IMG/VR virus record: IMGVR_UViG_3300003813_000020
Location: 1 to 34,943 of that record
Reading direction: 5' to 3' (one strand)
Length of the DNA: 34,943 nucleotides
Source of the DNA: a virus
The position numbers were made by a program, and so were the translations under genes. Numbering within the stretch: position 1 is the first letter of the stretch; each line of letters begins with the position of its first letter. Shown here piece after piece: positions 7,659 through 33,233 of the stretch. The notes beneath the pieces were generated by a model. That model ran no database searches, was not told the DNA's origin, and saw only the letters and a program-made list of their open reading frames with translations.

Positions 7659-7671
7659 TTTGCATTAATAT
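7659..7671 (+). promoter_or_regulatory. Intergenic motif TTTGCATTAATAT, plus-strand copy 1
   Basis: One of six copies, 20 bases before the lysozyme start in the 43-base gap after Rz. The T-run is shortest here (3) and no stem-loop precedes it, so this copy looks like a promoter only. It is followed by ATGCA, making the inverted repeat TGCAT-N6-ATGCA. Confidence 0.6.
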
Positions 7672-26119: not shown

Positions 26120-27174
26120 TGCCTAAGTTATCTCTACCTGAAATTCGTGCGCTGTTGGATGAGGCCAAGGCGGCCTATAAGGCCAAGTTTACGACAGGAT
26201 TTTATCATGGTAGTCCAGCAAATAACATAGAGGCATTTGATCCCACAAAGTCTGCTAAGGATCCAATGTACATTACTCCTAAAGCGACTTTTGTAACTAG
26301 GGACCCAGAGTTTGCGGAATCATTTTTGTCAATGAACAACAGTGGCAAAGTTAAATCTGGCTCTACTATGTATCCAGTAAATGTCAATCTAGGACAACAT
26401 TGGCACCCCGATACACAGGAAGGTCAACAGGTTATTTCAGACTTTATTGAAAAGTATCCGAAGCGCGTTAACCTTGAAAAGGGTTTAAAGCGTGGTGACT
26501 GGACAGCGATTGAAAACTCAGACTTTTTAACGCACTTAAAAGATACAGGACATGATACCTTCCACGTAGTAGAGGGTGGTATCCCTAACGTCGGTGTATT
26601 AAAGCCTGAAAACATCCGTGGCAAGTTTGCTGAGTACAATCCTGATGAGGCAATGAACCCAGACTTTATGAAGGCAGCTGGTGGCTCTGTTGAGGGTTAC
26701 GCTGGTGGTGGTGAGGTACTAAAGAAGGTATTAAAGTTTGCTGAGGATGTACCATTTATTCATTACAGCAACCACCCGTCACTTAATAGACTAGAGCCCA
26801 GCATGTATGGTCGCGGCATTAAGGGGCAAGAGGCGGCAAGGCTTAAAGATGCTCCAGATATTAAAGACCGTAGCTACTTCTACGTAAATAAGGGTGAGCA
26901 GACAATGCCACCAGAGCAGGGACTTGGTAGCCAAAAGTATCAAGGTACCGCATCAAATGTATACAACGCGGCCGAAGACCCAGAGGGATTTCATGCCATT
27001 GCTAAGAGCCGTGCACTTGATCCATACATGATGTCTTTTGGTCGTGAGATGGTAGATCCTGCCGTTAAGGCCACCGAGCTAGAGCGCCTTATTAAAGGTG
27101 CGGGCTATGAGGGCTACCACACCGGTGATGTGGGGCTGATGTTCAACCCCACACCGGTTAGTAAAGCACCGTAG
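26119..27174 (+). CDS. ADP-ribosyltransferase-like (ART-PolyVal type) virion effector, possibly two domains
   Basis: A 351-residue protein. The first part reads F-Y-H-G-S (28-32) followed by A-F-D, then F-V-T-R-D-P-E-F-A-E-S-F (58-69), Y-P-V-N-V-N-L-G (85-92), G-H-D-T-F-H-V (144-150) and V-L-K-P-E-N-I-R ... F-A-E-Y-N-P (160-175). This is the order seen in ART domains of phage polyvalent proteins (H-G near the start, a T/S-x-D-P-x-x-A-x-x-[FY] strand-helix, a closing x-P-x-x-I). A GG-rich linker (187-199) joins a second part with F-I-H-Y-S (213-217), R-S-Y-F-Y-V (251-256) and G-A-G-Y-E-G-Y (327-333), possibly a related fold. It is the last gene of the internal-virion block, so injection and early modification of host proteins is a reasonable inference. 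The catalytic glutamate was not identified with confidence. Confidence 0.6.
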   Translation: MPKLSLPEIRALLDEAKAAYKAKFTTGFYHGSPANNIEAFDPTKSAKDPMYITPKATFVTRDPEFAESFLSMNNSGKVKSGSTMYPVNVNLGQHWHPDTQEGQQVISDFIEKYPKRVNLEKGLKRGDWTAIENSDFLTHLKDTGHDTFHVVEGGIPNVGVLKPENIRGKFAEYNPDEAMNPDFMKAAGGSVEGYAGGGEVLKKVLKFAEDVPFIHYSNHPSLNRLEPSMYGRGIKGQEAARLKDAPDIKDRSYFYVNKGEQTMPPEQGLGSQKYQGTASNVYNAAEDPEGFHAIAKSRALDPYMMSFGREMVDPAVKATELERLIKGAGYEGYHTGDVGLMFNPTPVSKAP

Positions 27175-27547
27175 CTTTAACCCAATTAGCAAACTGATGC
27201 AACTGTTCTGGCGTTGCATCTCGTTTCATACAATTTGCCATATTGGAAAGCCATTGCACATTGCCGATGGTATATCCTTTTTCAGGATCTATTTTATCTA
27301 ACGATGGGCTTGTCTGAAGTATTTTTCCTTTTTGATGACCCCAAGATAATTCAGTATTAAACACTGGACATTTATCAGGAAAAATAGAAATTAAATACTC
27401 TAATGTCAGATCAAACGGAATGTTTAATTTTTTGGCGCGGTATTTAGTTTCAAAAAATCGACGTTTAATACAACCCCCTTTGGTGGACATTAACCTGTCT
27501 TGATGTTTTTTGGAACGAATTGCTTGTTTTTCTTTTTGCGAAAGCAT
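27158..27547 (-). CDS. HNH-type homing endonuclease
   Basis: A 129-residue protein with GGAG before the ATG. A basic N-terminus (S-K-K-H-Q-D-R, I-K-R-R-F-F-E-T-K-Y-R-A-K-K) is followed by the phage HNH pattern C-P-V-F-N, then S-L-D-K-I-D-P-E-K-G-Y-T-I-G-N-V-Q-W-L-S-N-M-A-N and a closing A-T-P-E-Q-L-H-Q-F-A-N-W. The first catalytic histidine expected near S-x-D-[RK]-I-D is not obvious, as in many phage members of this group. It sits at the end of the minus arm and overlaps the 3' end of the plus-strand ART-like gene by 17 bases, a convergent overlap. It has its own promoter-like motif and a structured leader. Confidence 0.8.
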   Translation of the reverse strand: MLSQKEKQAIRSKKHQDRLMSTKGGCIKRRFFETKYRAKKLNIPFDLTLEYLISIFPDKCPVFNTELSWGHQKGKILQTSPSLDKIDPEKGYTIGNVQWLSNMANCMKRDATPEQLHQFANWVKATVLY

Positions 27548-27628: not shown

Positions 27629-27639
27629 CCTATCTATAC

Positions 27640-27655
27640 ATATTAATGCAAAAAA
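27640..27655 (-). promoter_or_regulatory. Intergenic motif TTTTTTGCATTAATAT, minus-strand copy 1
   Basis: Minus-strand copy directly behind the polA stop codon and its stem-loop, about 90 bases before the terminal HNH gene. It continues with GTATAGATAGGG. Orientation matches the downstream gene. Confidence 0.65.
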
Positions 27656-27673
27656 CTAGGCAAATCCGCCCTA
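27655..27673 (-). terminator. Stem-loop with T-run at the polA stop codon
   Basis: Read on the minus strand, TAGGGC-GGATTT-GCCTA (5-6 bp with one bulge) begins in the polA stop codon TAG and is followed by G and six Ts that lead into the promoter-like motif. The stem is short but has the same layout as at 14961-14983. Confidence 0.5.
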
Positions 27674-29611
27674 TTTTTTGTACCTTTTTGAGACCCAGCC
27701 GTCTCCGGCTAATGGAAAATCAGGAGCCCATTTTGGTGGTTGTGTTACCATTTTTAACACATCAGCCAAAGTCTGTTCTGCATTTTTCTCATCAGTTAAT
27801 AAAAGGTATTCATCATGTATCAAGTTAGTCACCTCGTAACCGGCTTTATCAAGCCTAGTAAGTCCCTCGGCCAAAAAATCACGTGCGGTACCCTGCACCG
27901 CGGATTGAAACAACGAACTACCAATAATCTGATTCCTACCCCACTGCCTTGTATATGTGCTCTGAGTGTGGACAGTGACCCCGACCTTTTGCTGACCCCA
28001 CGGAGTGGTGACCAGCTCGAGCTGTGGCCTCTGCCAGCAGATGAGTCTACCTGATGGCAGCTGCATCCATAGCGCGTTCTTTGCCACCTTCAGAACCAGC
28101 TTATCCCCGGCACGAAACGGATTACCGGGATTCTCAACTGCTTGAATCGCGGCATTTTCGCACAATGCCCACAAAGCCTTCACTTTCACATACGAACTGC
28201 GGTAGCCATCTACTGCGTTCTTGGCTTGAGCCTCACTAAGTTTTACACCCATCCCCTCCGCGTACTTAACAAGTCCTTTCGCGCCTTGTCCAAACATTGC
28301 ACCTAAAACCGCTGACTTCGCGATTTGGCGCTGATCTTTAGTAACGTCGTCATAACTGACGTGATAAAGATTATCTGCTGCAAATGTTTTATACTCATCT
28401 AATCCTTTCCGGAACAATTCCACTTTATCTTTTTGCCCAGCCAGGTAGACGCCAACTCGGTTTTCAATTGAGCTAAAATCCACGTCAACGAAGGTTTTTC
28501 CCTCTGGTGCTCTAATAGCGGAGCGTACAAGGGAGGAAAGTTCTCGCATCGTACCATTTCCTCCCATAAATACGTTTGGTATTGCCTGTTCAATTTCCTC
28601 ATCTTCAAGTGTGGGGCGCGCAATATTCTGCAAATTAAGCCCACCACGGCTCGCCCAGCGGCCAGTACTAGCGCCATGATATACCAATGTATTCCTAATC
28701 CGTCCTTCACGTTGTATCTCCATCATTTTAGCGTACTTAGCCACGCTAGTTTGGCTTCCTTCTTGGCGCAGTTCTAAAGCTCTGCGAAGGGGTTTAAATA
28801 GGTGCTCCAGTTTAAGTGTTTTCTCTACTGTCTCGGCTGTTAAATCTGGTAACGGATCAATCATCATCTTGTTAACCCAACCCAGCAATTTGGCCCTCTC
28901 AGACGGCTTAAAACCGGTCAAGGCGACGCATTCGTTATCTAGTTGGTCCTGGGCCCTCACCACGGCCAAGACGGCGCTGTGGAGCTCGTTAGGATCAACC
29001 GGTACGCCTTTTAAATTAATTTTCTGAGTCAGTAGCCAAACTTCCTGCTCGGCCTCTGTAAGGGGCCTTAAATTGGCTACAATCGCCATCTCTGTGCGTA
29101 CGTCCTGTGCGCAGTAATCAAACAACTCACGCATTAACTCTGGATCTTCATTAAAGGTGCCTTTATGGGGCTTGCACAACTTCTGGATCAGGTATCTACC
29201 ACGGGTATCTTTTTGGTGCGCGCTGTCCATGAAGATGGCTGCATCACCCAATGATTGTGGCACGTTGTTGGCTGCTGCTATGGCCATGGAGTCAACGCAC
29301 TGCTCTAGCTTTAAGGGAGGCCAGCCGTATTTAGGCACACAGACACAGTTCCAGATGGCGTACTCGAACATGGCGTTCCATGCTTGGATCTTGCCACCAT
29401 CTTTGACGTGCTTTAAAAAACGAGAAAAAGCCATCACCGTGTTTGTGTCTGGTTTGGGTGCGTTGTAAACCGCTACATCGCTGGGGTTTGTGCCGTACGC
29501 AATACACAACACTTCCGTTGTGGGGTCGTTGGCGTAGATATCCAGACCGCGGTCGGTTAGATCAATGTGGCTACGTGTCTCAAAGTCAATACTAAAAATT
29601 TGCTCTTTCAT
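27671..29611 (-). CDS. polA: Family A DNA polymerase with 3'-5' exonuclease
   Basis: A 646-residue replicative polymerase. Start ATG 29611 is chosen for its GGAG and because the protein then begins directly with the exonuclease strand; 19 extra upstream codons have no support. Exonuclease: Asp9 and Glu11 (S-I-D-F-E-T-R), Asn79/Glu83 region (W-N-A-M-F-E), Y166-x3-D170 (Y-C-A-Q-D-V-R-T-E). Polymerase: T-G-R-W-A-S-R-G-G-L-N-L-Q-N-I at 316-330, motif A with Asp378 (D-V-D-F-S-S-I-E-N-R), motif B with R428/K432 through F440-G441, motif C His599-Asp600-Glu601. Motif A has S-S-I-E-N-R instead of S-Q-I-E-L-R, a variant common in phages. No 5'-3' exonuclease domain, as in T7. It lies behind a long structured leader with its own promoter-like motif. 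Confidence 0.95.
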   Translation of the reverse strand: MKEQIFSIDFETRSHIDLTDRGLDIYANDPTTEVLCIAYGTNPSDVAVYNAPKPDTNTVMAFSRFLKHVKDGGKIQAWNAMFEYAIWNCVCVPKYGWPPLKLEQCVDSMAIAAANNVPQSLGDAAIFMDSAHQKDTRGRYLIQKLCKPHKGTFNEDPELMRELFDYCAQDVRTEMAIVANLRPLTEAEQEVWLLTQKINLKGVPVDPNELHSAVLAVVRAQDQLDNECVALTGFKPSERAKLLGWVNKMMIDPLPDLTAETVEKTLKLEHLFKPLRRALELRQEGSQTSVAKYAKMMEIQREGRIRNTLVYHGASTGRWASRGGLNLQNIARPTLEDEEIEQAIPNVFMGGNGTMRELSSLVRSAIRAPEGKTFVDVDFSSIENRVGVYLAGQKDKVELFRKGLDEYKTFAADNLYHVSYDDVTKDQRQIAKSAVLGAMFGQGAKGLVKYAEGMGVKLSEAQAKNAVDGYRSSYVKVKALWALCENAAIQAVENPGNPFRAGDKLVLKVAKNALWMQLPSGRLICWQRPQLELVTTPWGQQKVGVTVHTQSTYTRQWGRNQIIGSSLFQSAVQGTARDFLAEGLTRLDKAGYEVTNLIHDEYLLLTDEKNAEQTLADVLKMVTQPPKWAPDFPLAGDGWVSKRYKK

Positions 29612-29741
29612 ACATGCTCCTGTGGCAAGCCAACGTATTGGCGGTTTAATAAAAACGTACAAAATCAACTATTAGTTTACTTTTTCGTACATTTTTAAAC
29701 TTTTTATTACAAATCAGTACTTTAACATACTTTTTTACACA

Positions 29742-29760
29742 TTAACATACTGTGTGTTAA
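29742..29760 (-). promoter_or_regulatory. Near-perfect palindrome in the polA leader (operator-like)
   Basis: TTAACATAC-T-GTGTGTTAA: 9-base arms with one mismatch and a 1-base centre. A further half-site TTAACATAC lies at 29722-29730. It lies between the promoter-like motif (29802) and the polA start. It could bind a dimeric regulator or, as RNA, form a stem-loop. Confidence 0.5.
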
Positions 29761-29792
29761 AGACGCATTTTAATGTTAAGGTGCATCTTTAA
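29757..29792 (-). promoter_or_regulatory. Long stem-loop at the start of the polA leader
   Basis: On the minus strand TTAAAGATGCA pairs with TGCGTCTTTAA (11 bp, one G-U; 29782-29792 with 29757-29767) around a 14-base loop. It shares 29757-29760 with the palindrome at 29742-29760, so the two structures compete. Confidence 0.6.
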
Positions 29793-29801
29793 ACTTCATA
29801 C

Positions 29802-29817
29802 ATATTAATGCAAAAAA
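29802..29817 (-). promoter_or_regulatory. Intergenic motif TTTTTTGCATTAATAT, minus-strand copy 2
   Basis: Copy between the HNH gene and polA, 190 bases before the polA start. The gap 29612-29862 is the largest in the window. Going towards polA it holds this motif, the stem-loop and palindrome, and an AT-rich stretch with several TTTTT runs in which I see nothing further. Confidence 0.7.
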
Positions 29818-29838
29818 GGGGCCTCCCAAAGGAGCCCC
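29812..29838 (-). terminator. Rho-independent terminator after nrdJ-HNH
   Basis: On the minus strand GGGGCTCC-TTTG-GGA(G)GCCCC, an 8-bp GC-rich stem with one bulged base, is followed immediately by TTTTTT. It is the strongest terminator of the set, and its T-run is again the start of the next promoter-like motif. Confidence 0.88.
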
Positions 29839-29862: not shown

Positions 29863-30342
29863 TTATTTGTTTCCGTGGTTTGCTATTAATTTGCACCAAG
29901 CAATAAACACTTCGTTTGACATATCTTTTTTCATCATGTTTAATGCTTTATGTACGATTTGAATGTTATTTGGGTTGTACCCCATATTACTATCAATTCT
30001 ATCCACGGAAGCATCGACACCAAATTCTAAAGGTATCCCAGTAAAAGCGCATAGTTTATCTTGTGCTTCATACCGATCACTAATCTCCTCAATAGTTAGC
30101 TCAAAATTTATACTACGTTTTTCTGCGCCGTGCTTTAGTTTAGAGTGAACTTTACCTGGTATCTCACCATATCCACGCCAAGCAGGATTTTTGTCGAGCT
30201 TGGCGTTTCTGTTTGGAGAACGATTGTTTAACGCGGTTCGACAAGAAGCACATACAGCGTTGTTGGCATTTGCTTTTTGGACAGAATCAGCACGCTTGTA
30301 GTGTATTGTCTTACCACATTTAGGGCAATCTCTTATAAACAT
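29863..30342 (-). CDS. HNH endonuclease with N-terminal zinc ribbon
   Basis: A 159-residue protein from ATG 30342, two bases after the nrdJ stop; the frame is open a little further up, but that is inside nrdJ. Two C-x-x-C pairs (C6/C9, C31/C34) form a zinc ribbon. Then comes the phage HNH pattern C-A-F-T-G-I-P-L, A-S-V-D-R-I-D-S-N-M-G-Y-N-P-N-N-I-Q-I-V-H and M-M-K-K-D-M-S. Likely a freestanding homing endonuclease inserted just behind the end of nrdJ, whose conserved C-terminus is intact. There is no good ribosome site of its own, so it probably depends on nrdJ translation. It is more AT-rich than nrdJ. Confidence 0.85.
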   Translation of the reverse strand: MFIRDCPKCGKTIHYKRADSVQKANANNAVCASCRTALNNRSPNRNAKLDKNPAWRGYGEIPGKVHSKLKHGAEKRSINFELTIEEISDRYEAQDKLCAFTGIPLEFGVDASVDRIDSNMGYNPNNIQIVHKALNMMKKDMSNEVFIAWCKLIANHGNK

Positions 30343-30344
30343 AA

Positions 30345-32219
30345 TTATATTTCGCACGATCCAGCACTGCATGCTAGGGTTTGAACACCCTCTACGTTGT
30401 CTGTGTTCTCCTTTAAATCTAGCCAGTTAATTTTAGGGATTTTGGCTTTGAGCTCTTCATACTCTTCTTCGGTGCATTCTTCATAAGGACTTTGGCGGTA
30501 ACTTCCGCCGTCGTAGGGGAGGTAGCTAACTCCACTGATTTCGTCGAAGTGGTCCCATGTCCAGGCTCCGACACTTGGCCAGTCTTTTTCTGCAACTGAG
30601 ACGGTGACTGAGGGCTTGTGCTCACACCAGTATCGCTGGTAGGTAAGCCAGAGTTCGAGGTGACTAATGGGAGTAACGTCGTCCCGTACGAGTCCGTCGG
30701 GGGCTCTTTGAGGAAAACTGAAGACGGTAGTTTGGGTTGGCTTGTAAACGCAGTCTTCAGCTGGTACTCCTTGTCCAATAAGGAACTGGGTGAGAGGATC
30801 TTTTTTATCTCCACGCACTCTTCGGATATAGTATTTAGCATGGCGAGGGTGGATGCCGCTCGCCGAATTAGTGAGCTGGGATACTGTTCCACTTGGCTTG
30901 ACGCATGTGATAGCAGCGCTGACAGGGACTCCGAGAATAGCTGCCCATTCTTTATTTGTATCTCTAGCGCATTCTCTAAGTTCTGTAAGTAGTTCATTTA
31001 ATTCTGGTCCTTGGGTTGTGAGAAGGGGATTATCATAGATGCCGGTGAGGGAGACACCCAGTAACCGCTCCTCTTCAGTATTTCTCTGCCACACCTTGCG
31101 CAGATAGGGGAACTTTGTGAAGGTAGACTGGATGGTACCAAGGATAGCGGCGAGGCGCACCTTACGCAAGAGAGTTTCACGGTTGTCGTCATGGCGTACT
31201 ACACATTCACTAAGATTGCAAAATTGGTAGGGTCGTAAAATGATCTCACTGCACGGATTTGTACCGAACTCAAAATTTGGATCTCGATGCCCGTATTTTT
31301 CAACCGCCTTTTTAGCAGCCTCCCGATTGAATATGCCTCGCTCACCGGAATGGGAGTTGTAAAGTGATAGCCATTCCTCCATGAACTTTCCGACAGTAGG
31401 TGTCTCATTATACACCGCACTGTTGTTCGCAAGAGCCCTATGCGGAGCGGTGTCCCACCATGGTCCAGCTTTTGCATGTCTAATCCTTTCGTCGTCCAGG
31501 TCGGAAAGTGAAATCATAGCTGATCGGCGTACGCCACCCACTACAACCACCTCACCAATTTTACACATCAAGTCGTGGCACTCTAGGCTGTTTAGCTTAC
31601 GACCCTTGGCGTGTTTAAATGTTGCTACAGTAAACTCAAATAGATCAATTAGTGGTTGTGGCCCGGAAGCTCTTCCACCAAATGTTTTGAGTCGTGCTCC
31701 GGCAGGTCTAACATTGCTGACGTCCCACTGCGGGATTTCTCCAGCCCAGAGGCTTGCGAGGAGTAAACGTAATGATTTTGCCCAGCCTTCTTTGGAGTCG
31801 TGGACTGTGATGCGATGCTCGGACTCAAAAAGTTTTTCCGGCACTTCAGGCAGTAAGGATATATATTTGGCCTCGACTGAGAATCCCACACCTGTTCCAC
31901 AGAGCAGGATAAACATGGCCTCATCGAAAGACTTGGGGTCATCCACTGGAAGATACGAGCAATTATAGACGCAAGTATTGTCACGATCGGCACTCTTTCC
32001 TGCAGTCATCATGGCTCGCATGGACGGCATCAATTCAAGGTTAACAATAGACTTGTACAAGTCTGCTTTTAGTTCTTCATTGCCAGTGATGGCTGGTGTA
32101 CGGCTAAAAATATAATCTGTAAATCTGGTTACTGTCTCTGGCCAACTTTCACGACGACCCTTGTCATCTTGATAGCGGGCATAACGGCTGGCGGCAATGT
32201 ACTCTTGATACTGGTCCAT
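30345..32219 (-). CDS. nrdJ: Class II (adenosylcobalamin-dependent) ribonucleotide reductase
   Basis: A 624-residue monomeric-type reductase that makes deoxyribonucleotides for phage DNA with an adenosylcobalamin-generated thiyl radical. Visible: C83/C87 (N-T-C-V-Y-N-C-S-Y) holding the first redox cysteine; G-G-R-A-S-G-P-Q-P-L (181-190); N321-P-C323-S-E325 with Cys323 as thiyl site and Glu325; partner C334 eleven residues later, the spacing of C408/C419 in the Lactobacillus enzyme; K-P-S-G-T-V at 441-446; and the C-terminal shuttle pair C617-x4-C622 in A-C-S-A-G-S-C-E-I. No separate small subunit or activase gene is near, as expected for class II. It is shorter than the ~740-residue bacterial enzyme. 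A terminator lies just upstream, between it and the SSB group. Confidence 0.95.
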   Translation of the reverse strand: MDQYQEYIAASRYARYQDDKGRRESWPETVTRFTDYIFSRTPAITGNEELKADLYKSIVNLELMPSMRAMMTAGKSADRDNTCVYNCSYLPVDDPKSFDEAMFILLCGTGVGFSVEAKYISLLPEVPEKLFESEHRITVHDSKEGWAKSLRLLLASLWAGEIPQWDVSNVRPAGARLKTFGGRASGPQPLIDLFEFTVATFKHAKGRKLNSLECHDLMCKIGEVVVVGGVRRSAMISLSDLDDERIRHAKAGPWWDTAPHRALANNSAVYNETPTVGKFMEEWLSLYNSHSGERGIFNREAAKKAVEKYGHRDPNFEFGTNPCSEIILRPYQFCNLSECVVRHDDNRETLLRKVRLAAILGTIQSTFTKFPYLRKVWQRNTEEERLLGVSLTGIYDNPLLTTQGPELNELLTELRECARDTNKEWAAILGVPVSAAITCVKPSGTVSQLTNSASGIHPRHAKYYIRRVRGDKKDPLTQFLIGQGVPAEDCVYKPTQTTVFSFPQRAPDGLVRDDVTPISHLELWLTYQRYWCEHKPSVTVSVAEKDWPSVGAWTWDHFDEISGVSYLPYDGGSYRQSPYEECTEEEYEELKAKIPKINWLDLKENTDNVEGVQTLACSAGSCEI

Positions 32220-32637: not shown

Positions 32638-33152
32638 ACAGCAAAGTCCGACGCTGCTGATGTAGACCCACCAAACTTCTCACCATCCTCTAACTTCTGC
32701 ACATTGTTCAAGCCGGCAGCAATACCCTTAGAGCCGCTTGTATCGTACGGATACAAAGTGATGGATGCACGGCCATAGCAACCTGAGTAGAACTCGCTGG
32801 TGTCGATGATTGGGTTCAGGTCTTGGTCTACAATACCTGGGCGTTCGTTAGAGCTGGCGTTGATAAAGTAATGACCTGCATAAGCCGCGTCATCTTTCTC
32901 TGCATCACCATCACGTAGTCCGCCTTTAAGGAGCTTAGGTACTGAGCCACCCCACACGGCTGCGTTGATTGTCTTGGTCTCTTCAAACGCCTTCTTAAAG
33001 CGCGCCACTGTCTCTGTGTCTGACTTAGGGATAAGGATGGATACAGAGTACTTTAACACGCCGTTTGGTGTCTCAGCTGGCTGGAACACGTTAGCGTAAG
33101 AGAAGCGAACCTTGCCAGTTACAAACTTGGTCTTGATTGATTTTGTTGCCAT
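32634..33152 (-). CDS. ssb: Single-stranded DNA-binding protein, DUF2815 (Enc34-like)
   Basis: A 172-residue protein from ATG 33152 (M-A-T-K-S-I-K-T-K-F); a longer reading from 33191 exists, but its ATG lies in the loop of a leader stem-loop, and the family begins near here. Visible: G-K-V-R-F-S-Y-A-N-V-F, S-V-S-I-L-I-P-K-S-D, a basic middle K-L-L-K-G-G-L-R-D-G-D, Y-F-I-N-A-S-S, and F-Y-S-G-C-Y-G-R-A-S-I-T-L-Y-P-Y with G-I-A-A-G-L-N-N-V-Q-K-L, the hallmark of DUF2815. Family members have an OB fold like T7 gp2.5 and coat single strands at the fork. The end is short and acidic (S-D-F-A-V), as is typical of SSB tails that bind partners. Confidence 0.9.
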   Translation of the reverse strand: MATKSIKTKFVTGKVRFSYANVFQPAETPNGVLKYSVSILIPKSDTETVARFKKAFEETKTINAAVWGGSVPKLLKGGLRDGDAEKDDAAYAGHYFINASSNERPGIVDQDLNPIIDTSEFYSGCYGRASITLYPYDTSGSKGIAAGLNNVQKLEDGEKFGGSTSAASDFAV

Positions 33153-33177
33153 GATGATTATTACCTTTTTAACATAA

Positions 33178-33204
33178 AGACTGGACTTCATTTGGGGCCA
33201 GTCT
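33178..33204 (-). promoter_or_regulatory. Stem-loop in the ssb leader
   Basis: On the minus strand AGACTGG pairs with CCAGTCT (7 bp perfect) around a 13-base loop that contains an in-frame ATG (33191). It lies between the promoter-like motif and the AAAAAGG ribosome site of ssb, so it could affect start choice or autoregulation by SSB. Confidence 0.55.
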
Positions 33205-33218
33205 GTCTACCCATACAC

Positions 33219-33233
33219 ATATTAATGCAAAAA
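33219..33233 (-). promoter_or_regulatory. Intergenic motif TTTTTGCATTAATAT, minus-strand copy 3
   Basis: Copy 67 bases before the ssb start. The T-run is five long and no strong stem precedes it. It continues GTGTATGGGTAG. It divides the nuclease/membrane-protein group from the SSB group. Confidence 0.65.

Follow-up and report, generated by a model that had tools for sequence, protein, structure and literature searches.

Toxin-antitoxin-type operator sequences, a conserved hairpin and a promoter-like element as candidate controls of a phage polA gene

A role in phage defence is widely discussed for toxin-antitoxin systems. Phage-encoded sigma factors also exist, T4 gp55 and SPO1 gp28 among them, and the phage polymerase gp43 belongs to family B. 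HipBA autoregulatory operators consist of inverted repeats at a set spacing, and a change in HipA is thought to raise activity through disturbed HipA dimerization within the operator complexes (PMC7029023, in part). CrlA inhibits lytic phages, and the palindrome of the crlTA operon was found in Pseudomonas phage genomes, where its authors suggest direct binding, with the antitoxin blocking phage replication (PMC9127804, in part).

The locus studied here, the gap before the polA gene of a viral record (IMGVR_UViG_3300003813_000020; the window is the whole stretch analysed, 34,943 nt), shares something with each of several described systems. Like HipBA, some relatives carry in their polA leaders a pair of sites at a 49-bp step that in bacteria adjoins hipBA-like genes; unlike HipBA, the fetched phage stretches hold no hipBA, and the window has no HipB-type site with fewer than two mismatches. 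As with AbiEi-type operators, inverted repeats stand ahead of a gene for an antitoxin-like DNA-binding protein whose partner is nucleotidyltransferase-like (PMC7319586, in part); unlike those operators, the protein concerned (L130 type, below) has no Pfam match and the present sites lie before polA. As with CrlA, the sequence of an antitoxin operator would lie within phage genomes, but where the cited part of PMC9127804 names no fixed place for it, here several operator types fall in one gap before a polymerase gene. As with the T4/RB69 gp43 operator, a hairpin close to the ribosome site precedes the polymerase start and is conserved in relatives; it is 14 nt long against 18 and 16 nt in T4/RB69, and its loop is of the UNCG type rather than UAAC/UAAA (PMC3014915, in part). 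Unlike the gp43 system, the polymerase is of family A, its binding to the leader is hypothetical, and the conserved hairpin is a different one from that reported by the first-pass annotation of this DNA. The hairpin resembles the DUF2815 RNA (RF03084) in being a leader element of a replication gene, in the same phage and with the same promoter-like element, and differs from it in sequence and gene. Finally, a sigma-70-like protein and a promoter-like element without recognizable −35 recall phage sigma systems, with the difference that region 4 is above the Pfam cut-off in none of the three proteins compared. A literature search at the level of titles and abstract openings returned no report of such operators before a phage polymerase gene.

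Layout of the polA leader

The polA gene is on the minus strand, so its leader is to be read as the reverse complement. The features needed here are as follows.

27671-29611, minus strand: polA, family A DNA polymerase of 646 aa (Pfam DNA_pol_A)
29617-29621, minus strand: Shine-Dalgarno sequence AGGAG, its GGAG beginning 8 nt after the hairpin of the next line
29629-29642, minus strand: UNCG-type tetraloop hairpin GCCAA-UACG-UUGGC, conserved and covarying
29651-29750, minus strand: array of 10-bp period that carries part of the module; GT opens nine of its ten blocks
29722-29730, minus strand: second half-site GTATGTTAA, N11 after the dyad and part of the same module
29742-29760, both strands: candidate operator dyad TTAACA-N7-TGTTAA, the palindrome reported earlier and the sole mismatch-free copy in the window
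29757-29792, minus strand: 11-bp hairpin reported earlier, its sequence found in this phage only
29798-29817, minus strand: promoter-like element TTTTTTGCATTAATATGTAT, the leader putatively starting a few bases downstream
29818-29838, minus strand: G+C-rich hairpin followed by T6, by eye the terminator of the upstream HNH-like gene (29863-30372)

Read toward polA, the order is HNH-like gene, terminator-like hairpin (at which the consensus terminator scanner listed none), promoter-like element at 29817-29798, 155 bases of A+T-rich DNA, the short hairpin, Shine-Dalgarno sequence and start codon. The first-pass annotation had drawn attention to an 11-bp stem, a near-perfect palindrome sharing four bases with it, and a further half-site. 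All of these are present: the stem pairs 29792-29782 with 29767-29757 on the minus strand (one U-G pair included), the 19-base near-palindrome at 29742-29760 has eight of nine pairs, the overlap is the four bases 29757-29760, and the half-site occupies 29722-29730. Both the hairpin and the palindrome lie inside the 155-base A+T-rich stretch, and in such DNA neither is significant alone; dinucleotide-preserving shuffles of the 186-nt leader gave a stem of at least 11 bp in 54 of 400 cases and a dyad at least as good in 73 of 300. What does exceed chance is the GT array together with the recurrence of the module, both outside what the first-pass annotation described. GT repeats strictly every 10 bp in all eight blocks starting from 29750 to 29680, and none of 300 shuffles matched this, with any dinucleotide and any period of 8-12 allowed.

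The polA search yielded 80 viral loci and one bacterial bin, L001 being the same phage as the window. By eye, the leaders of most of these relatives are short, with no A+T-rich insert; a DNA search of phage records with the leader found no match. Small HNH-like genes flank polA on both sides (27158-27547 and 29863-30372, minus strand; the HNH assignment is our own reading, Pfam giving no match), and relatives differ in which small genes occupy these gaps.

The dyad module and other operator types

Thirteen distinct viral sequences, in four kinds of surroundings, contain the module [TTAACAYACNGTRTGTTAA]-N11-[GTATGTTAA] with no more than one mismatch. This count combines a dyad scan of viral contigs (118 stretches, mostly chance-like matches without the second half-site) with loci from other searches. 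The module lies before polA in the window/L001, L088, L099 and L120; ahead of a MarR-like gene, whose partner gene is nucleotidyltransferase-like, in L130, L154 and L204; near a primase-helicase gene in L168 and L202; and within long stretches of non-coding DNA of other phages in L110, L125, L141 and L153. Its orientation relative to the gene is inverted in the polA phages as compared with L130. As far as these sequences tell, the dyad persists while its flanks change. In L099 the palindrome has longer arms, CATTAACATA GAG TATGTTAATG, and the upstream DNA is unrelated, with a sigma-70-like promoter recognized by eye (TTGACA-N18-TATACA) that lies partly within a 13-bp inverted repeat; in L088 the dyad is TTAAAATACTGTGTGTTAA, with an 11-bp inverted repeat of other sequence ahead of it. 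The module was also considered as a host chromosomal operator and rejected: the exact window variant was found in none of 399 bacterial genomes and none of 32 genomes of one family, and up to three mismatches again gave none of the 399. A resemblance of GTATGTTAA to a XerD site was considered and dropped as well. Separately, we note long non-coding phage stretches with clustered operator-like repeats (L141:5600-6230, L125:4470-4870 and L110:4000-5220), which combine HipB-like pairs (by eye), the dyad module, and GACTCATTAATAAGTC-like and TGTCAACAAA-like repeats.

The MarR-like setting gives the module a constant position: the distance from module end to MarR-like start codon is 28 bp in all three viral contigs that carry a close relative of the gene. 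Homologs occur in eight of 300 bacterial genomes and in 33 plasmid records (MarR family annotation on two of 20 listed). The sequence CGATAACA-N7-TGTTATCG, whole or partial, precedes the start of the MarR-like homolog at each of the seven bacterial loci inspected, and CACGATAACA-N3..8-TGTTATCGTG was found in three of 300 bacterial genomes, always at the start of such a homolog. A core, TAACA-N7-TGTTA, is common to the window dyad and these bacterial operators. The MarR-like protein has a weak family match (NCBIfam MprA, E 0.003) and none in Pfam, and a fold search gave nothing informative. Its partner is only weakly AbiEii-like (PADLOC E 0.004), has no Pfam match, and did not align significantly with true AbiEii in hhalign; the partner alignment shows what we take to be a nucleotidyltransferase-like motif, and the best matches of its structural model (pLDDT 70) are nucleotidyltransferases at low TM-scores, MenT1 among them (E 0.02). 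For neither protein of the L130 pair did a sequence search against solved structures return anything useful. Membership of this pair in AbiE was considered and dropped, Pfam giving no support. One bacterial region, L272:2623-8150, has a MarR-like gene, a hipBA operon with a 49-bp operator pair and an AbiEi/AbiEii operon adjoining one another (hipBA and AbiE by Pfam).

The same gap holds operators of other types in relatives. Sites of the CACGATAACA-N7-TGTTATCGTG or CGATAACA type lie no more than 450 nt upstream of polA in L018, L038, L039 and L059; by eye, these L018-type sites overlap a sigma-70-like promoter beginning TTGCAC, and L059 has a small gene after the site. A wider viral scan for the CACGATAACA type gave 31 stretches (site position relocated in all but L326), of which four, the contigs of those same four loci, have it between ribonucleotide reductase and polA; the other 27 are not beside polA, and one of the 31 is beside a MarR-like homolog.

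HipB-type TMCCGATCGGKAA pairs at a 49-bp step are found in L006, L014, L016 (one change in its second site) and L073 (further upstream), and L003 has a single HipB-type site; the window's own sequence contains no such pair. In bacteria, this pair (49-bp step, up to two mismatches) occurs in 16 of 399 genomes, the reversed control in none, and HipB-like and HipA-like ORFs adjoin it at all 16 loci examined, one per genome (a further site, G197, C57:3758, was left out); the reference hipBA pair matches Pfam HTH_3, HipA_C and Couple_hipA. In viruses, we found exact pairs in 21 stretches. Ten of these are beside polA, nine with reductase and polA both in the stretch, and three of the ten are the contigs of L006, L014 and L073; the other 11 pairs are elsewhere, mostly intergenic and once inside a long ORF (L315). 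None of the 21 fetched stretches contains hipB or hipA. In two unrelated phages, HipB-type pairs stand before genes that we read from their ORFs as clamp-loader-like (L308:11795, L313:911).

Taking the three operator types together over 75 polA genes, we counted 12 sites in 33,034 nt of upstream sequence against two in 734,420 nt elsewhere (Fisher p 3e-15, an optimistic value since the types were picked after viewing these leaders and near-identical contigs were kept). Both of the sites elsewhere are in the reductase-polA gap of L073. The count was made on the locus strand with set mismatch limits, and covers L001-L080 minus five loci that start inside polA, with L083 out. A site of any of the three types is present at nine of the 75 loci, leaving 66 without, and a cruder count of placement by groups gives seven of eight groups (binomial p 2e-9). 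Two other repeat types were seen in polA leaders: the inverted repeat GGTACTTA-N4-TAAGTACC (GGTACTTA..AAGTACC) at L050:4932, L058:3926 and L088:4638, and TGTCAACAAACATGT-type repeats in L006, L008, L021 and L027.

We consider it fairly probable, judging by these comparisons, that 29722-29760 serves as the DNA operator of a dimeric repressor similar in kind to those by which toxin-antitoxin operons control their own expression. An operator for a dimeric protein was one of two possibilities raised in the first-pass annotation, and for the palindrome and half-site it is supported, dyad and spacing being kept in unrelated surroundings. The likeliest binder would be a winged-helix protein of the MarR-like sort that has a nucleotidyltransferase as its partner. 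Phages of this group would then carry changing operator types between the ribonucleotide reductase gene and polA, namely two winged-helix variants and the HipB type. With the site about 30-70 bases downstream of a putative phage-specific promoter, a bound repressor would be expected to impede transcription of polA, and the promoter covered in L099 and the L018 type would be of host type. As phage DNA replicates, copies of the site would titrate the repressor or hold antitoxin-toxin complexes, and, given HipA dimerization in operator complexes, a decoy pair with correct spacing would plausibly be useful to a phage. Protein binding at the site, the named binder of the window variant and the toxin-antitoxin nature of the gene pair are proposals drawn from these patterns, and the effect may be repression, titration or sensing. 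The wider proposal, that these uncultivated phages tie their replication to the toxin-antitoxin state of the host through exchangeable host operators before polA, by repressor gating or by decoy copies, we advance tentatively, as a possibility that may well turn out wrong. If phages do carry such operators at a set position ahead of the replicative polymerase gene while lacking the genes themselves, they may read or disarm toxin-antitoxin systems through DNA sites instead of proteins, and operator sequences in phage genomes could help predict host toxin-antitoxin repertoires.

A conserved hairpin and a promoter-like element

A covariation check had been proposed for the leader. The sequence of the reported hairpin is not conserved; a separate hairpin, at 29629-29642, is conserved and covaries. 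Such a UNCG-type hairpin stands before the Shine-Dalgarno sequence in 65 of 76 polA leaders (75 of L001-L080, five that start inside polA being left out, plus L083), with UACG, UUCG, UGCG or CACG as the loop. Among 50 distinct rows, the spacing from hairpin to GGAG is 8 nt in 47, 7 in two and 9 in one; 95.6% of cells are paired, and four of the five pairs have changed on both sides. The covariation score is 0.520, as against 0.171 when shuffled and at most 0.089 when slid, and both-side changes number 42 cells versus 11 shuffled, a large count, though sequences that share ancestry can surpass shuffles of this kind. Of the 59 matches that a covariance model gave in 71 sources, almost every one falls at the polA start. 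We conclude that the hairpin probably acts on the polA mRNA, through its translation or its stability, and may be a translational operator, an mRNA stabilizer or both.

These same figures (presence at 65 of 76 loci, pairing and covariation, and the placement of the model matches) favor a first alternative to the DNA operator, in which polA or another phage protein binds the UNCG-type hairpin and represses translation as T4 gp43 does, the palindrome being incidental. We regard this as somewhat unlikely to be the explanation. It accounts for an element other than the one reported, and a hairpin serving 5'-end stability would look alike. Eleven of the 76 loci have no such hairpin before polA; the model match in L019, L030 and L039 is at a greater distance upstream (ahead of a small gene in L030, on our reading), and the weakest match, L080, has E 0.55. 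Eight distant polA phages (31-36% identity) have no credible match, the only hit having E 3 and being on the other strand. Moreover, the operator reading is compatible with a functional hairpin.

The promoter-like element at 29798-29817 recurs elsewhere in the window:

27636-27655, minus strand: promoter-like element, the identical 20 bases, before the small HNH-like gene 27158-27547
33215-33230, minus strand: promoter-like element with one mismatch, directly before the DUF2815 RNA
33150-33213, minus strand: Rfam DUF2815 RNA (RF03084), leader of an Enc34-type ssDNA-binding protein gene

Six TTGCATTAATATGTAT-like elements with up to three mismatches are present in the window where 0.7 are expected, upstream of genes on both strands; sites with the TTTGCATTAATAT core are at 7660, 8223 and 14982 on the plus strand and at 27636, 29798 and 33215 on the minus strand. 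The same kind of element precedes genes of relatives: the pattern TTTGCATTADTATR, in which the variable base D is limited to A, G or T, was found in 14 of 17 records, the window's included, at 73 sites, with none for the reversed control. Base D is uniform within the record in 13 of the 14 (G002 is mixed), while 20,000 label shuffles never gave more than five uniform records. This uniformity suggests a promoter element that co-evolved with a phage-encoded factor, perhaps a sigma-70-like protein. Such a protein was first spotted through region-4 matches below cut-off in eight of 20 records, and is encoded in 21 of the 48 records searched, many of the others being short fragments. In the three proteins compared, region 3 is above the Pfam cut-off in all, region 2 in two, region 1.2 in one and region 4 in none. 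The window's record, which may itself be a fragment, lacks the protein. We infer that it reads the element TTTGCATTADTAT; the polA leader would begin at a phage-specific promoter, one that a phage sigma factor perhaps recognizes. For a T7-type RNA polymerase as the reader, PF00940 was found in none of 25 records, a result that leaves absence unproven because the control was also blank.

The DUF2815 RNA was the only Rfam family found at the gathering threshold, in the window and 10 of 13 relatives; the polA hairpin was unmatched at that threshold in the window and the 13 relatives. As the DUF2815 RNA comes directly after a copy of the promoter element, it is probably at the 5' end of its transcript. 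The UNCG-type hairpin and the phage-specific promoter would make two further candidate controls of polA.

Other readings of the palindrome and the array

A second alternative keeps a DNA-binding protein and removes the toxin-antitoxin connection: a regulator or replication initiator, encoded by phage or host, would merely share a DNA target with toxin-antitoxin repressors, and the GT array, lying where the replication genes begin, would act as an iteron-like origin or as a regulator array. In its favor are the strict 10-bp array, placed in A+T-rich DNA at the polA leader, and the distribution of such arrays. Similar ones exist in few leaders (L001, L008, L021, L027, L088, L099 and L120), and in the loci scanned the array was seen only before polA, barring simple repeats (L046) and a chance-like match (L026). 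A binder of the window variant was, in addition, not found in the hosts searched (399 and 32 genomes). Against it, the bacterial HipB-type and CACGATAACA-type sites are gene-specific, at 16 of 16 and three of three loci examined, and the module also precedes the MarR-like gene. We think this account unlikely.

A third alternative is that the operators are relics of toxin-antitoxin operons that these phages once had beside polA and whose genes were later lost, and it draws some appeal from the place of the operators in a gap that often gains HNH-type genes. We found no match to hipB, hipA, MarR-like or nucleotidyltransferase genes in the fetched polA-side phage loci, and neither the dyads nor the 49-bp step shows decay, which makes a relic origin improbable.

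The other possibility raised in the first-pass annotation was an RNA switch with two folds. Among 349 loci, none but the copies of this phage has the 36-base hairpin sequence; the next best elsewhere has 12 mismatches. Its predicted RNA energy is −11.1 kcal/mol (z −5.8), that of the palindrome −1.1 kcal/mol (z −0.3), so that the two are not balanced alternatives and a two-state switch is unsupported. L099 and L088 have stems of unrelated sequence (13 and 11 bp) at the corresponding position ahead of the module, and L120 has no stem above 6 bp there. A riboswitch-like leader in which hairpin and palindrome are alternative folds is thus very improbable in spite of their four-base overlap, the better folding of the whole leader than of shuffles (z −3.8) and those stems in L099 and L088, since the hairpin sequence is private to this phage, L120 lacks a comparable stem and the palindrome is weak when folded as RNA. 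What the first-pass annotation observed is confirmed in part, and its interpretation supported in part.

Returning to the operator as a DNA element, some kind of inverted repeat lies ahead of the dyad in three of the four contexts; such repeats could be additional operators. Another inverted repeat, of 15 bp (29683-29697 / 29650-29664, minus strand), lies within the array and is a second strong predicted hairpin of the leader.
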